Source: Flavobacteriales bacterium
GTDB taxonomy: Bacteria > Bacteroidota > Bacteroidia > CAIKAF01
Length of the DNA stretch: 64,000 nucleotides
Assembly: GCA_018401695.1 (NCBI GenBank)
Contig: JAGYKD010000002.1
Coordinates: 124,001-188,000 of the forward strand
Reading direction: 5' to 3'
The notes beneath the pieces were generated by a model. The model had not been told where the DNA came from. It saw only the letters and a program-made list of their open reading frames with translations, and made no database searches. A program made the translations under genes and the position numbers. Positions 5,961 to 62,677 of the stretch are shown here, in pieces; positions within the stretch are counted from its first letter, which is position 1; every line of letters starts with the position of its first letter.

Positions 5961-6101
5961 TTATCCGCGTCTTGCGGCGGCCTGCCTTGTCGGTGCAAGC
6001 ACTGCCAAAGCCCTTGTGGGCGCTTTGCCAAAGGCACCGCGTCCTCAGGGCGGCAGGTGCATGCACCGACTGCGGCCGGGCCTCTGCTGCCGCGGGGGGC
6101 C
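5961..6101 (-). repeat. Structured hairpin element, subfamily 2 (copy D1)
   Basis: GC-rich intergenic island. Read on the minus strand, it starts with GGCCCCCCGCGG, carries the subfamily core CTGAGGACGCGG followed by CCTTTGG and a CCCACAAGG segment, and ends in GCCGCAAGACGCGG. The arms (GTCGGTGCA at about 5990, TGCACCGAC at about 6062) can pair. Its 3' end faces the end of the Spy-like gene at 5931. It stands tail-out beside copy D2, in the opposite orientation. Confidence 0.5.
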
Positions 6102-6130: not shown

Positions 6131-6281
6131 GGCACCCGGCCGGCCGCATGCAGGGCAAAGCCAAAGCCTTAGGGCGGAAGGCTGAGGAGGCGTACCTTTG
6201 GGGAGCCACCGCAAGCCTTTTCCGCCCTTGGCTTTGGCGAAGACCGGCAGCAGGCATGGGCCGGAAAGAATACCGGATGCC
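6131..6281 (+). repeat. Structured hairpin element, subfamily 2 (copy D2)
   Basis: The ends pair (GGCACCCGG at 6131 with CCGGATGCC ending at 6281, one mismatch). Inside, GCCAAAGCC pairs with GGCTTTGGC, and AGGGCGGAAGGCT with AGCCTTTTCCGCCCT. The loop begins GAGGAGGCG and ends CCACCGCA. The same layout, with different stem bases, is seen at 48411 and 60235. The 3' end points at the end of gldN (stop at 6301), so the element is antisense to that gene's transcript. No ORF is supported in 5932-6300. Confidence 0.6.
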
Positions 6282-38885: not shown

Positions 38886-39055
38886 GGGACCCTTGACGCG
38901 TTGTGTTTTCAAGTTTATATCCCTGACCAAGGCGTCAGGGACCTAGTTCCTGACCGGAGCGTCAGGAGACAATTAGGGCACGGACAAATGGAAAGTCTCC
39001 TGACGCTGCGGTCAGGACAGGATCGCCGCCAGAATAACAGCGCGTCAACGGTCTC
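38886..39055 (-). repeat. MITE-like element (copy M1)
   Basis: Terminal inverted repeats GGGACCCTTGACGCG (left) and CGCGTCAACGGTCTC (right). Inside are perfect small hairpins such as CCTGACCGCAGCGTCAGG and CCCTGACCAAGGCGTCAGGG, plus the family segment ACTTTCCATTTGTCCGTGCC (minus strand) and TATTCTGGCGGC near one end. GGATTGG and GGATGGG flank it, an imperfect possible target duplication. No ORF inside. Confidence 0.75.
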
Positions 39056-44379: not shown

Positions 44380-44578
44380 GAGACTGTTGACGCGCTGCTA
44401 TGCTGGCGGCAATCCTGTCCTGACCCCAGCGTCAGAGGGCCTTTCGATTTGTCCGTGCCTTAATTCGCACCGGCGCTGCGTAATGACGCTTCGGTCAGCA
44501 TCTTTGTGCCGGCATCGAAGGACTCCGGACGCTTCGGTCCGGAACTAAATCGTGAAAACACAACACGTCAACGGTCAC
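44380..44578 (+). repeat. MITE-like element (copy M2)
   Basis: Ends GAGACTGTTGACGCG and CACGTCAACGGTCAC are imperfect inverted repeats. Family segments TATGCTGGCGGCAATCCTGT, CTGACCCCAGCGTCAG, ATTTGTCCGTGCCTTAATT and CTGACG-CTTC-GGTCAG are present, plus a TCCGGACGCTTCGGTCCGGA hairpin. The rest of the 44297-44806 gap shows no gene. TAAGTTTG at 44773-44780 may be the -7 of the next gene. Confidence 0.75.
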
Positions 44579-48182: not shown

Positions 48183-48353
48183 GAGACCGTTGACGCGTTG
48201 CTATTCTGGCGGCAATTCTGTCCTGACCGCAGCGTCAGGGTTTGCATTACGGCCAAATCTCAAGTATTTAATCCTGACTCAAAGATGCTGACCGCAGCGT
48301 CAGCATGCAGCGTCAGGGTTATAAACTAGAAAACAGAACGCGTCAACGGCCTC
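48183..48353 (+). repeat. MITE-like element (copy M3)
   Basis: Near-perfect inverted ends GAGACCGTTGACGCG and CGCGTCAACGGCCTC. Inside are TATTCTGGCGGCAATTCTGT, the hairpins CCTGACCGCAGCGTCAGG and TGCTGACCGCAGCGTCAGCA, and AAACTAGAAAACAGAACGCG before the right end. TCATTAGG and TCATAAGG flank it, an imperfect possible target duplication. No ORF inside. Confidence 0.8.
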
Positions 48354-48410: not shown

Positions 48411-48580
48411 GGCCCCCCTGCCCGGCGGAGGGGCCGCTGCCACCAAAACCCGCAGGGGCAGGACTGAGGAGGCCCGACGCATGGAGGAGACCCCGCAAGC
48501 CTTGCCCATGCGTGGTTTTGGTGGTAGCGCACCGGAGTAGGGGCAGGAGATGTACCTAGGGTGTTATTGGAAGGAGGGCC
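48411..48580 (+). repeat. Structured hairpin element, subfamily 2 (copy C)
   Basis: The ends GGCCCCCC and GGAGGGCC pair with one mismatch. CTGCCACCAAAACC (48437) pairs with GGTTTTGGTGGTAG (48514), followed inward by CGCA with TGCG and GGGGCAGG with CCTTGCCC. The loop begins GAGGAGGCC and ends CCCCGCA, as in D2 and F. The tail has CCTAGGGTGTTATTGGAAGG, close to D2's CCGGATGCCTTATTGAAAGA. Its 3' end faces the end of the glycine-rich gene. Confidence 0.65.
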
Positions 48581-55496: not shown

Positions 55497-55661
55497 GGGC
55501 CCTAGCTTTTAAAAAAACACCCTTCCAAATCCGGCCCCGTTTCCGGACTCCCTTGCCTTCCCAAGCCCCGGCAGCCTCCGGTGGTTCCGCTAAGCTTCAC
55601 CTCCTCGGCCTCCCGGGGCTAAGGGGCGGCTGCGGGCGGTCCTCCTACCGGCCGGGGGGCC
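55497..55661 (-). repeat. Structured hairpin element, subfamily 2 (copy E)
   Basis: Read on the minus strand: GGCCCCCCGGCCGG start, TTAGCCCCGG pairing with CCGGGGCTTGG, loop GAGGAGGTGAAGC ... GGAACCACCGGA, then CCGGATTTGGAAGGGTGTTT and a GGGCC(C) end that pairs with the start. Features match C, D1, D2 and F. Here the 3' end faces a gene start (ABC operon) and the 5' end faces the CAP gene end, unlike most other copies. The gap 55314-55496 holds the operon promoter and nothing else visible. Confidence 0.6.
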
Positions 55662-57967: not shown

Positions 57968-59039
57968 GCAGTTCTTCCTGAAGTTTTTCGGCTTGCTCTG
58001 TGGTTTGCAAGGCCTTTATAATGGGCATCAAATGGCCGTTCATGATTTCCGGTAAGTTATAGACCGACAAATGGATGCGGTGGTCGGTGAGTCGGCTTTG
58101 CGGAAAGTTGTACGTGCGGATTTTAGCACTTCGGTCTCCGGTGCTAACCATTGATTTCCTTTTTCCTGAAAGTTCGGCCTGCTTTTCGCGCAAGGCTTTT
58201 TCGAACAGACGGGAGCGCAATACCTGCATGGCCTTGTCAAAATTGCGCAATTGCGAGCGTTCGTCCTGACAAGAAACCACCAATCCGGTAGGTAAGTGGG
58301 TCAAACGAACGGCAGAATAGGTAGTATTTACAGACTGCCCACCGGCACCGGAGGAGCAAAAGGTATCTTTTCGGATATCCTTGGCATCGATATGCACATC
58401 TACCTCATCGGCTTCGGGCAAAACCACCACCGTAGCTGCTGAGGTGTGGATGCGTCCTTGGGTTTCGGTAGCCGGTACCCGTTGCACGCGATGAACCCCG
58501 CTTTCGAACTTTAGGGTACCATAGGCCATATTGCCTTCAATGTTTACAATAACCTCTTTGTAGCCACCGGAAGTTCCGGGGGTGGCGTCTACGTGCACTA
58601 CTTTAAACCCTTCGTTTTCGCAAAAGCGTTCGTACATGCGCAGCAAATCGCCGGCAAAAATGGCCGCTTCGTCCCCACCGGTTCCCCCTCGAATTTCCAA
58701 CACGGCATTGCGGTGATCTTCGGGGTCTTTTGGAACCAACAGCAAGCGGAGTTTTTCTTCTTGGGTTTCTATGGTTTGTTCTAATTGCTCAATTTCTTCT
58801 TTGGCCAGGGTACGTAAATCCTCGTCCTTTTCTTCGCGCAACAGCGCCTTAGCCGATTCCATGTGTTGTTTGGCTTCTTTCCAAAGGGCGCCTTCTTTGC
58901 AGATGGCTTCGGTTTCGCCATAGGCTCTTTGGAGGGCCACAAAGGCTTTAACGTCTGCCGCTATTTGAGGGTCAGACAATTGAGTTTCAAGCTCTTCTTT
59001 TTTTTCTTGAAAATGGGCTATGCGTGCTTCTAAATTCAT
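57960..59039 (-). CDS. prfA: Peptide chain release factor 1
   Basis: RF1 reads UAA and UAG stops. The 359-residue protein has the GGQ motif in SSGAGGQSVNTTYSAV (about 231), a PCRF domain before it and the codon-recognition part near IHVDATPGTSGG... and RIHTSAATVV. PxT-type recognition residues were not located by eye; assignment to RF1 rather than RF2 rests on length, overall sequence and lack of an internal frameshift. It overlaps pyrF and the purM-like gene. Confidence 0.92.
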   Translation of the reverse strand: MNLEARIAHFQEKKEELETQLSDPQIAADVKAFVALQRAYGETEAICKEGALWKEAKQHMESAKALLREEKDEDLRTLAKEEIEQLEQTIETQEEKLRLLLVPKDPEDHRNAVLEIRGGTGGDEAAIFAGDLLRMYERFCENEGFKVVHVDATPGTSGGYKEVIVNIEGNMAYGTLKFESGVHRVQRVPATETQGRIHTSAATVVVLPEADEVDVHIDAKDIRKDTFCSSGAGGQSVNTTYSAVRLTHLPTGLVVSCQDERSQLRNFDKAMQVLRSRLFEKALREKQAELSGKRKSMVSTGDRSAKIRTYNFPQSRLTDHRIHLSVYNLPEIMNGHLMPIIKALQTTEQAEKLQEELHG

Positions 59040-60202
59040 TCGGTATAGCTAAATGTGCCAAAATCGGTTTCCAATACCACTTCTGCTTTTTCGGAGGCTT
59101 GCACATAGCCACTAATGGTGGCGTCTAATCCAAAAGGGCGACAAGCGGCAACAAACTCTTCGGCCACTGAGGGCGGCATAAAAAGCTCCAAGCGGCTGCC
59201 CATATTAAAAACGGTATACATTTCTTGCCAATCGGTTCCGGATTGCCTTTGAATGGCTCTAAACAACGGTGGGATTGGGAGCATTTGGTTTTTAACCACC
59301 TTGTGTCCCTTCAAAAATTTTAGAACTTTGGTATGTGCTCCACCCGTGAGGTGAATAATGCCATGAATTTGCGGCCTGAAAATGGGCAGCAATTCTTTAA
59401 GAATGGGCAAATAGGTACGGGTGGGCGATAAAGCTAAGCGGCCATAGTCGATTCCGGTAGAAGGTTCGGTATCGGTTAGGCTTAATTTGCCCGAATACAA
59501 ATACTGGGAAGAAATGAGCGGGTCAAAGGTTTCCGGATATTCGCGCAGGTAACTTTTATTAAATAAATCGTGTCGTGCAGAAGTTAAGCCATTGCAGCCA
59601 ATGCCGCTATTGTATTGGTTTTCGTACTTGGTTTGGCCGTAGCTTGCCAAGGAAACCACCGCATCGCCGGCCTGAGGGTTAATCTCAATCACTTGGTTTC
59701 TTTGCATACGCCCCATTACTGTAAATCCTACGTCAAGGGTGCGCACCAAATCGCCCACGTCTGCTGTTTCTCCTCCGGCATGTTGAATGTTTAATCCAAG
59801 GGCATTCCATTCCTTAATCAGTTCCGCGGTTCCTTGGATAAGCGCTTCTAAAACGCTGCCTGGAATTAGGGTTTTGTTTCGGGCAATGGTAGAAGAGACA
59901 ATAAAACCCTCTGTCATGCCGGCACAGGCCATATCGTCCAGGTTCATTACTAAAGCATCTTGGGCAATGTGTTTCCAAACGGAAAGGTCACCGGTGATTT
60001 TCCAGTACAAATAGGCCAAAATGGGCTTGGTACCTGCGGTATCTGCATGCATAATGAGGGCATGATCGGGAGAACCGCAGAGCACATCAGGAAGGATTTT
60101 ACAAAAAGCTTGGGGGTACAAGCCTTTGTCAAAATCTCGAATAGCTTGGTGTACCTCTTGTTTGTCGGAGGAGACACCTCGTGCAGCATAGCGATTGCTC
60201 AT
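59036..60202 (-). CDS. purM: AIR synthase-related protein (PurM type)
   Basis: 388 residues. PurM makes aminoimidazole ribonucleotide from FGAM. Segments such as HADTAGTKPILAYLYWKITG, NLDDMACAGMTEGFIVSSTI and GGETADVGDLVRTLDVGFTV match the PurM fold (ATP-binding, magnesium and substrate parts). Length is near the family norm of about 350, with extra residues near 55-75. Overlaps prfA by ATGA. Confidence 0.82.
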   Translation of the reverse strand: MSNRYAARGVSSDKQEVHQAIRDFDKGLYPQAFCKILPDVLCGSPDHALIMHADTAGTKPILAYLYWKITGDLSVWKHIAQDALVMNLDDMACAGMTEGFIVSSTIARNKTLIPGSVLEALIQGTAELIKEWNALGLNIQHAGGETADVGDLVRTLDVGFTVMGRMQRNQVIEINPQAGDAVVSLASYGQTKYENQYNSGIGCNGLTSARHDLFNKSYLREYPETFDPLISSQYLYSGKLSLTDTEPSTGIDYGRLALSPTRTYLPILKELLPIFRPQIHGIIHLTGGAHTKVLKFLKGHKVVKNQMLPIPPLFRAIQRQSGTDWQEMYTVFNMGSRLELFMPPSVAEEFVAACRPFGLDATISGYVQASEKAEVVLETDFGTFSYTE

Positions 60203-60234
60203 AATGCAAAGGTCAACATTTTTTGGAAGATAAA

Positions 60235-60525
60235 GCGCCCCGGCCTGAACGGACAGCTGCCCGAAGTAGGCCTTTAGTCCGCCTTTGGAGACCGTTGAGG
60301 GGAGGCGTTTTCAAGGCAGATTAAGGCACGGACAAATGGAAAGTCCGCAGTTTAATGACTGTAAATGAGGAACTTTAGATTTGGCCGTAACGCAAAGATG
60401 CCGCCAGAATAGCTTTCCCTCAACGGGCTCCTTTGGCGAGGAGGTGGAGCCTTAAGCGAACCCCCGCAGCCTTAGGCGGACTTAAGGCCTGCAAGGGCAC
60501 TGGAAGTGGAGGACGGAACAGGCGC
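60235..60525 (+). repeat. Structured hairpin element, subfamily 2, interrupted (copy F)
   Basis: The ends GCGCC (60235) and GGCGC (60521) pair. GGCCTT-t-AGTCCGCCT (60270-60284) pairs with AGGCGGACT-t-AAGGCC (60474-60488). A MITE-like element (60289-60429) sits inside this stem, flanked by CCTTTGG on both sides. Without it and one CCTTTGG, the stem continues to GGC/GCC, and the loop begins GAGGAGGTGGAGCC and ends CCCCGCA, as in C and D2. The 3' end abuts the terminator of the next gene. No ORF in 60203-60580. Confidence 0.7.
60289..60429 (-). repeat. MITE-like element (copy M4) inside hairpin element F
   Basis: Ends AGACCGTTGAGGG and CCCTCAACGGGCT match 12 of 13 as inverted repeats. Minus-strand segments GCTATTCTGGCGGCATC, TTACGGCCAAATCTAAAG (as in M3) and GGACTTTCCATTTGTCCGTG (as in M1) are family signatures. 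The CCTTTGG flanks at 60282-60288 and 60430-60436 look like a 7-bp target duplication. Shortest copy (141 bases). Confidence 0.78.
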
Positions 60526-60527
60526 CC

Positions 60528-60560
60528 AAAAAAAAAGGTCATCTCGAAAGATGACCTTTT
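60528..60560 (-). terminator. Intrinsic terminator of the PorE-like gene
   Basis: On the minus strand, GGTCATCTTTCGAGATGACC (8-bp stem), then nine T. Hairpin element F ends three bases beyond. Confidence 0.9.
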
Positions 60561-60580: not shown

Positions 60581-62677
60581 TTACTCGCCTTCGGGTTTGG
60601 GTGTGCCTTCTTCGTTTTCGTTTTTGGGCGTGCCGCTTTTGAAGTCCTCAGAGAGAATTTTGAGGGTTACGCGACGGTTGATTCGGTGGGCGTCTTCGAA
60701 AACCTCCTCGCCTTCGCTGCTGCGTAGTGCGTTGATGTACTCCTCGGCCATTACGGTATCTTGTTTGAAGATATAGCCGGTTTTGAGGCCTTTCATGTCT
60801 TTGAGTAGTTTCCGCGGCTCGGTTTCGCCGTAGCCATTGGGAACCAATCGATTGGGGTCGATTCCTGCGTCTACCAGGAGACGTACGATTTCGTTGGCAC
60901 GACGCTCAGAAAGTTTGCGGTTGTATTCGTCGTTACCTCTGGCATCGGTGTGTGCTCCAATCTCAACCTTTAGGCTTGGGTTGTCCTCTAGAATCAAGAG
61001 TAGGTTTTTGACGGTATCTACGTATTCAGGCTCAACAATTTCCTTGTCAAAAACGAACTGGATTTCGAATTCAAGGTTAACCTTAGTGGTTTTCAAAGCA
61101 AAATCTGCCACGATATTGGTGTCTTTGCAGGTTTTGAGTGGGTCAAGCCCCATAGAAGAGGCACGGTTTACATCGTTGTAATAGTTTTCTCTGGTGGCTT
61201 GCATGTCGTAAGTAACACCAAAAGGGATGTCCATTTTGTAGAAGCCCATTTTATCGGTGGTTATGGTCTTTTTTTCACCCTCGGGGTTGGTAAGTTCTAC
61301 GGTGGCATTTTCCAATGGTTCTCTAGTGTCTACGTCTACAACGGTTCCGCTAAGGGTAATGGTTGCGGTAGGGATAGAGAAGGCCCAAATGTCGTCGAGA
61401 CCTCGGCTTCCTTCGCGGTTAGAAGATAAATATCCTTTTTCTTGACCGCGTTCAAACATGATTCCGAAATCGTCTTTGGGGGAGTTGATGGGGTACATCA
61501 TGTTTTCTACTTTGCCCCAGGTTTTGTCTCCGGTGAGTTCGGCTTTGTAGATATCAAGTCCACCCATGCCTTCGGGGCGGCTTGAGGAGAAATAAAGGGT
61601 TCCGTCAAGTTTTAGGTGAGGGTAAACCTCATTGTCGGTGGTGTTGATTTCGTCTCCCAAATTTTTGGGTTCTACAAAGGTTTTGGCGCGGCGTTGGTAT
61701 TCGGCCACCCAAAGGTCCATACCGCCTTTAGTTCCGGTCATGTTGGAAGAAAATACCATGTATTTTCCATCTCCTGAGATGGTTGGGTGTGCGGTTACAA
61801 AGCTATCGGGAGCGATTTCAATGTTTTCGGGTTCTGCCCATTTGGTGCCCATTCGGCGTGTTTTAAGGATGCGGCAACCGGAGCCATTCTTTTTGTCTTG
61901 AAAACAACGGGTAAAGTACATGTAGCTGTAGCGGTTATCCATGGCACCGGCGCCTTCGGAGTGTTCAGAAGAAAGACCTTCCAATCGCTTGGGTTCTTTC
62001 CATGCATTGGAGCGTCGTTCGGCTTCAACCAGGTACAAATCTTCGGGAACACCACCATGGGTTCCCCATTCCTTGCCTGCGCCTTTGCCTTTGAATTTCC
62101 GGTTGGAAGTAAAAATGATTTCGTCTTGACGGCGTGAAGAAATAAATGGAGAGAACTCCATATCTCTTGTATTCCAGGCTTTAACGTTTTCTACTTGATA
62201 GCAAGTAGGGTTATTTTTCCATTGGATAGCCAGTTCGCAGGATTTAACGCCCAATTCGCCACGCGGGTCGTTGGGTTCCATTTCCTTGTATTTTTTGAAC
62301 TCGCTCATAGCCTCTTCGTATTCACCTTCGGCTTTGAGTAAGCTGGCGTATGCGTAGATGGCACCGGCGTTTTTAGGGTCATAGCGCAGCACTTTTTTTA
62401 GCTGGCTTGTGGCTCTCCTGTATTCGTTCATTTTAAGGTAGCACTTGGCTACCATAAACGATACGCAAGCCTTCATGGACTTGTCTTTGCCCACTTTTCC
62501 GGAGGCTTTTTGGTAGAGCTTGATTGCTTCAGGGAAATTGTTGCTTATGTAAGCAAAGTCAGCTTTAGCAGTGCCTTTGTGCCCACATTGAGCCGTCACC
62601 GGCTGGGCTGCCATAAGCGCTAAACCGACCATTAGGCCGGCAGTTCGGGTCAGTGCGTTGGTCTTTGTTCTCGCCAT
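60581..62677 (-). CDS. PorE-like T9SS protein: TPR, PD40 propeller, CRD and OmpA domains
   Basis: 698 residues. A signal peptide (ending VTAQ) precedes TPR-like helices (about 35-145, ISNNFPEAIKLYQKASGKVG), a PD40/WD40-like propeller (about 165-435, MEFSPFISSRRQDEIIFTSN, GTLYFSSSRPEGMGGLDIYK), a CarboxypepD_reg-like domain (about 445-520, SGTVVDVDTREPLENATVEL), and an OmpA domain (about 545-680, KVEIGAHTDARGNDEYNRKL). This is the layout of PorE, which anchors the secretion machine to peptidoglycan. A Glu-rich tail ends the protein. Confidence 0.85.
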   Translation of the reverse strand: MARTKTNALTRTAGLMVGLALMAAQPVTAQCGHKGTAKADFAYISNNFPEAIKLYQKASGKVGKDKSMKACVSFMVAKCYLKMNEYRRATSQLKKVLRYDPKNAGAIYAYASLLKAEGEYEEAMSEFKKYKEMEPNDPRGELGVKSCELAIQWKNNPTCYQVENVKAWNTRDMEFSPFISSRRQDEIIFTSNRKFKGKGAGKEWGTHGGVPEDLYLVEAERRSNAWKEPKRLEGLSSEHSEGAGAMDNRYSYMYFTRCFQDKKNGSGCRILKTRRMGTKWAEPENIEIAPDSFVTAHPTISGDGKYMVFSSNMTGTKGGMDLWVAEYQRRAKTFVEPKNLGDEINTTDNEVYPHLKLDGTLYFSSSRPEGMGGLDIYKAELTGDKTWGKVENMMYPINSPKDDFGIMFERGQEKGYLSSNREGSRGLDDIWAFSIPTATITLSGTVVDVDTREPLENATVELTNPEGEKKTITTDKMGFYKMDIPFGVTYDMQATRENYYNDVNRASSMGLDPLKTCKDTNIVADFALKTTKVNLEFEIQFVFDKEIVEPEYVDTVKNLLLILEDNPSLKVEIGAHTDARGNDEYNRKLSERRANEIVRLLVDAGIDPNRLVPNGYGETEPRKLLKDMKGLKTGYIFKQDTVMAEEYINALRSSEGEEVFEDAHRINRRVTLKILSEDFKSGTPKNENEEGTPKPEGE

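Follow-up and report, generated by a model that had tools for sequence, protein, structure and literature searches.

IS5-type MITEs have been described in Porphyromonas gingivalis (MITEPgRS/MITE464 and BrickBuilt, with ISPg4, ISPg1 and ISPg9), where they form strong stem-loops and are linked by the identity of their ends to IS5-family elements (PMC4596501). The ends of the IS5-family element ISPg4 and of MITEPgRS read GAGACTGTTGCA, and BrickBuilt copies vary in the number of a 23-nt internal unit (PMC4596501). The BOX elements of Streptococcus pneumoniae are likewise composite, dispersed and stem-loop forming, and strains differ by gain or loss of internal modules (boxB), which leaves the rest of the fold undisturbed (PMC3049150). 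Correia/NEMIS, RUP and ERIC are dispersed palindromic MITEs of about 100-150 bp; Correia elements occur in forms with and without a 50-bp internal segment, and RUP, which is linked to an IS via shared ends, inserts in other mobile elements (PMC2229807).

Our analysis revealed a family of comparable elements, here called M, in the genome of a Flavobacteriales bacterium, a member of the same phylum as P. gingivalis (Bacteroidota). One of its copies, M4, lies in the 64,000-nucleotide stretch of DNA that was analysed (the window) and is a real nested MITE insertion, interrupting a member of another, older hairpin family (Table 1). M shares the strong stem-loops, comparable ends (GAGACYGTTGACGCG in M, GAGACTGTTGCA and TGCAACGGTCTC there) and the end identity to an IS5-family element with the P. 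gingivalis MITEs, whereas its interior, a single covarying hairpin, is unrelated as far as the published text permits comparison, its mini-hairpins are dispersed over four fixed positions and not arranged in one tandem array, and its target duplication is a regular 5 bp where those reported for BrickBuilt vary (PMC4596501). The modular make-up of M recalls that of BOX, but sequence and phylum are different, and the modules of M occupy four places in both arms, mostly one each. The ends of RUP correspond to those of IS630-Spn1, and TA is found in its targets, in contrast to the IS5-type ends and 5-bp duplication of M (PMC2229807). An IS5-type MITE is a known kind of element; the socketed interior with one-strand covariation makes M an unusual variant of it.

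Table 1. Features of the M4 locus and related copies in the window (positions are those of the window).
Feature	Position	Strand	Remarks
AIR synthase related protein gene	59036..60202	-	Pfam AIRS and AIRS_C
Left half of split host hairpin	60235..60287	+	outer arm and 5' stem side, up to left target copy
Target duplication CTTTG, left copy	60283..60287	.	5 bp
M4, IS5-type MITE	60288..60430	+	143 bp, internal sockets empty
M4 left terminal inverted repeat	60288..60306	+	GAGACCGTTGAGGGGAGGC; read from sequence and inverted-repeat search
M4 right terminal inverted repeat	60412..60430	+	GCTTTCCCTCAACGGGCTC; read from sequence and inverted-repeat search
Target duplication CTTTG, right copy	60431..60435	.	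5 bp
Right half of split host hairpin	60436..60525	+	loops GAGGAGG 60438-60444 and CCGCA 60464-60468
Intrinsic-terminator-like hairpin after ompA-like gene	60533..60560	.	inverted repeat
OmpA-family protein gene	60581..62677	-	TPR and PD40 repeats (Pfam)
Host family members	6136-6260, 48418-48547	+	host model
Host family members	55531-55654, 5965-6094	-	host model
Host family member, half-broken by M4	60383-60516	+	host model
Three other M copies	38886-39055, 44380-44578, 48183-48353		several mini-hairpins each; one nested in another

The window's own genome (G000; 2.99 Mb on 19 contigs) was searched for further copies, which returned dozens of relatives of the inner part of the locus and a different set for its outer part. 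A covariance model of M gave 70 listed matches in G000 and 84 in the sister species G002, the MAG JAUHWY01 (Bacteroidia bacterium isolate 2_bin.4; 100% identity at two loci), these counts including a few second-strand hits of the same palindrome. The model had no match in four other congeners, M as a DNA query found nothing in 38 further genomes, and a scan of GTDB contigs for the terminal-inverted-repeat pattern matched JAUHWY01 only. An Rfam search of eight loci gave nothing at gathering score, with just a chance-level SNORA68 match, far under the cut-off, at the M4 locus. Nearly all M copies, which range from 93 to 284 bp, carry terminal inverted repeats (GAGACYGTTGAYGC...) at both ends. 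When all copies are centred on the duplication, at least 30 of them repeat exactly 5 bp; about one in two of the copies found lacks an exact duplication, which may reflect age or later change.

The sequence-only reading had claimed that M elements move or once moved. For 25 G000 copies, the two flanks were joined and the resulting sequence was looked up in G002, where seven orthologous sites (L115, L014, L119, L008, L015, L032 and L004) proved to be empty with a single target copy and aligned through the junction over 112-122 columns; an eighth, L013, shows a deletion in G002. Past mobility is established by these cross-species empty sites, and the label MITE-like that the same reading had given can be made firm, as M elements are short and dispersed, have inverted ends and a duplication of constant length, and occur as occupied and empty alleles at orthologous sites.

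At M4 itself, CCTTTGG is indeed found on both sides (60282-60288 and 60430-60436) with 141 bp in between, from which a 141-base element with a 7-bp duplication had been proposed. Other copies of M begin with G (GAGAC) and end with C (GTCTC), and side-by-side comparison gives a repeat unit GAGACC/T ... G/AGTCTC that is one base wider on each side. Elsewhere in the family, then, the outer G and C are element ends, with exactly 5 bp duplicated outside them in at least 30 copies; M4 is accordingly 143 bp long (GAGACCGTTGA...CAACGGGCTC) and is flanked by CTTTG. The 7-bp duplication was rejected for this reason; the earlier reading had itself named the possibility that other copies contain the flanks as element sequence, and this is what was found for the outermost base on either side. 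The 7-bp appearance arises because a C-N5-G target is preferred: the duplicated 5 bp are preceded by C in 20 of 30 copies and followed by G in 15, with both present in 11 of the 30 copies with exact duplication. Either count requires the removal of 148 bp to recreate the empty site. Over its full length M4 is 87% identical to the family consensus; its identity to the nearest copy in its own genome is 85%, and its covariance model score is 145 bits.

M4 also occurs at the same site in G002, with the same unusual paired ends (GAGGGGAGGC / GCTTTCCCTC), so that the insertion is older than the split of this species and JAUHWY01. Gene conversion from a known paralogue was considered for the G002 form of M4 and is not supported, the closest other copy being only 80% identical. 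The comparison of genomes proposed earlier for finding the empty site was successful at the seven other sites named above but not at M4, where the sole relative with a shared locus (G002) also has the element. In the more distant congeners G001, G003 and G005 neither M4 nor the host hairpin is present between the two flanking genes.

Removal of the 148 bp gives GGCCTT-t-AGTCCGCCT-tt-GGC / GCC-tt-AGGCGGACT-t-AAGGCC, which matches exactly the refolded host hairpin that had been drawn from the sequence. On folding, the left host half pairs with the right half once M4 is removed, and the rejoined 77-nt core forms a single hairpin of the GAGGAGG...CCGCA type with all stem pairs listed earlier, at -47.2 kcal/mol (z = -6.9; none of 200 shuffles equally good). 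As a control, 148 bp were removed at each position across 60240-60525 before folding; the optimum of this deletion scan, -75.8 kcal/mol against a mean of -58.9 over all deletions, was reached at 60282-60289, that is at M4, in agreement with the earlier claim that deleting M4 restores the host hairpin. M4 alone folds at -61.5 kcal/mol. A repeat search independently recovered the two nested inverted repeats, that of the split host (60268-60284 / 60474-60490) and that of M4 (60288-60306 / 60412-60430), and the right half was matched by the host model R1 (60383-60516, 39.9 bits, E 1.5e-5).

With M4 in place, the region likewise gives a stable fold over its whole length (-67.5 kcal/mol as DNA, z = -6.8), and the locus is better conserved between the two species (94-97%) than the neighbouring genes (85-87%). 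Both would suit a single complex hairpin RNA or DNA element whose internal domain is absent from other copies, without any insertion. Such an origin is nevertheless extremely improbable, given that M, with duplications of its own, stands at scores of unrelated sites, forms empty/occupied pairs between species and also occurs in non-hairpin contexts, while over 100 host copies are without M.

At least two further M copies sit in GAGGAGG hairpins. A GAGGAGG...CCGCA hairpin is interrupted by M at L024, and its flanks CCCACAAGC..AGCAAGG and CCTTGCTTGGCTTGTGGG face each other once M is omitted; at L075, in the sister species, the rejoined flanks fold across the junction. Together with M4 and the covarying host stems, these hairpin-splitting insertions bear out the earlier claim that the insertion supports the host fold independently. 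A strong preference of M for hairpin targets was considered and rejected: an energy below -55 kcal/mol was obtained for 13 of the 63 empty sites that were reconstructed, compared with 2.9% of random window positions, but this random background includes coding DNA, and intergenic bias may explain the figure.

The host hairpin is a genus-wide family with covarying stems. A covariance model, in which 24 of the 27 consensus pairs show changes in both partners, was built with 15 host copies; it has 131 listed matches in G000, 135 in G002 and 24-51 in each of four other congeners, with essentially none in the other genera tested. The internal loops (GAGGAGG, CCGCA, GGAGGGCC and GACCGG) are conserved, and the stems vary almost freely, yet remain paired. 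A strand bias of clear sign was not seen in the host stems; an excess of A-C (24 vs 8) was discarded as a sign of such a bias, the count being inflated by a fixed core mismatch. Of all features in the window, this family is probably the one of greatest interest. Another hairpin family, about 124 bp long (...CAAGGAGCTTCCTTTGGTCGCTCTTGGCCGGGC...), was observed in at least 28 copies in G002 (loci L151-L172), and the flanks of L128 show M inserted in one of its copies in G000.

The host element lies directly past the T run of the terminator of the ompA-like gene (minus strand), and congeners have a terminator at the same place without the host element. The left and right host halves are 94% and 97% identical to those of G002, compared with 85-92% for the flanking coding DNA; the OmpA-family protein is 96% identical. 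Besides, the 32 bases before the AIRS-like gene (60203-60234) are identical in both species while the gene itself is 85% identical, which suggests a conserved promoter or leader.

A possible source of the transposase was sought by scanning exact GAGACYGTTGA sites for inward-facing pairs. One pair was found, spanning 1302 bp (G000:C1:161131-162432, equal to L111:332-1633), with the ends GAGACCGTTGACG and GAGACTGTTGACGCGT. It encodes a DDE transposase frame (Pfam DDE_Tnp_1, E 2e-24; NCBIfam transpos_IS5_4, E 4e-70), and M ends share 13-16 bp with it. This IS5-type element is a single copy in the genome, its flanks (ACTAG / AAAAT) show no target duplication, an in-frame TAA interrupts the frame at codon 14, and G002 gave no such element; the link to the transposase therefore rests on end identity. 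Given the matching ends of this element and the parallel of ISPg4 and MITEPgRS, the best inference is that M was mobilised in trans by an IS5-type transposase, probably supplied by the C1 element or by a lost relative of it.

A different enzyme could be imagined, of the Y1 (RAYT) type, for which M would be a REP-like single-strand element. Each species has three to four Y1 transposase genes, and one strand of M has a strong fold. The REP/REPIN palindromes of Y1 (RAYT) enzymes are also dispersed and intergenic and occur in the same genomes. However, M is without Y1-type features: it has inverted terminal repeats and 5-bp duplications, and the Y1 genes inspected (L188, L189 and L191) stand among other palindromes, flanked by CAGCTCCGTAGGAGCG or CCGACCCCGAAGGGGTCG, which have no relation to either M or the host family. 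To our knowledge Y1 transposition makes no target duplications. A REP/REPIN origin of M was rejected on these grounds and has next to no probability.

With an IS5-family DDE transposase the events at this locus would be as follows. Acting in trans on a copy of the M family, the enzyme would have inserted the 143-bp M4 into the 5' stem of an older intergenic hairpin, at a C-N5-G target. The staggered cut would then have been filled in, leaving the 5 bp CTTTG on both sides. The host hairpin would thereby have been split, with both halves staying recognisable and the empty-site sequence able to refold, before the divergence of this species and its sister JAUHWY01. Taken as a whole, this account of M4 as an IS5-type MITE inserted in an older host hairpin before the species split appears to us very probable.

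The fold of M was examined in 31 ungapped 143-bp copies with a 49-pair hairpin, a short alignment in which conversion between copies is possible. In it 97.2% of the cells are paired, and 20 of the 49 pairs show changes on both sides, which no shuffle or slide control approaches. On the tree of these copies, 36 double changes preserve a Watson-Crick pair, many of them in the terminal repeats. This pattern could be purely mutational, with template switching between the arms correcting imperfect palindromes so that both arms change together; the host stems, which vary freely and remain paired without clear strand bias, would agree with such a process. Correction of this kind is strand-blind, yet single changes from a Watson-Crick pair led to G-T 33 times and to A-C 9 times (p = 0.0003), and in all 31 copies, which are related, the fold of the plus strand is the more stable of the two, by a mean of 11.9 kcal/mol. 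We regard correction alone, which would be strand-symmetric, as rather unlikely, and the G-T excess and the plus-strand advantage point to selection of the M fold on one strand.

ERIC and Correia elements have proposed roles in mRNA processing or stability, and M might similarly be kept as a transcribed RNA element acting in neighbouring mRNAs. The one-strand covariation would agree with this, as would the placement of M4 between two co-directional genes and of M in general, with 15 of 35 contexts being convergent gaps and 3 divergent ('inside ORF' classes of M sites are mechanical assignments, which include M4's own intergenic site). But no orientation bias relative to genes is seen in tandem contexts, where M has the same orientation as the genes in 9 cases and the opposite one in 8 and hence has no fixed transcribed strand, and the better-folding strand of M4 is antisense to both neighbours. 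A role in a neighbouring gene's mRNA is not favoured, given the missing tandem bias together with the preference for convergent gaps, and we consider it improbable. Selection on one strand would have shaped the internal fold in the course of the element's own life and not for the benefit of the cell.

The lengths of M increase stepwise (93, 120, 143, 167-171, 194-195, 218-223 and 246 bp). The extra DNA of the longer forms is a mini-hairpin, CCTGAC-N6-GTCAGG with short flanks (about 25 bp), which occurs in four fixed sockets, after CAAG(G), AAAGTCC, GAGGA and CGCAAA. The pattern CTGACSNNNSSGTCAG was found about 90 times in G000 and about 110 times in G002, where control matches were zero in both, and never in four other congeners. 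While M4 has all sockets empty in G000, sockets 3 and 4 are filled in G002. A second orthologous insertion inside another hairpin (L027:1443-1636 in G000, L076:1501-1643 in G002) carries mini-hairpins in sockets 1 and 4 in G000, whereas all its sockets are empty in G002; the sequence in between is nearly identical. The two loci thus differ in opposite directions between the species. Gains, losses or short conversion tracts could each account for these differences. Tandem mini-hairpin arrays with a spacing of 26-27 bp were also observed within M-like elements of G002 (L182:490-590 and L183:210-470). It is possible, and we propose it tentatively, that the interior of M, selected on one strand as RNA or single-stranded DNA, acts as a scaffold with four sockets for mini-hairpins of about 25 bp. 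There would then be two levels of mobility, that of the hairpin modules inside a MITE and that of the MITE itself inside a larger hairpin family.

As a natural experiment, the nested insertion proves the architecture of the host hairpin independently. It also allows relative dating, with the host family present genus-wide, M only in the two sister species, and M4 inserted before their split. At orthologous copies the turnover of sockets can be followed, as short hairpins come or go at fixed positions. With many copies in two species, compensatory changes and strand asymmetry, the M family is suited to ask of bacterial MITEs whether selection acts on their stems, as one folded strand, or whether these stems simply follow from the inverted ends.
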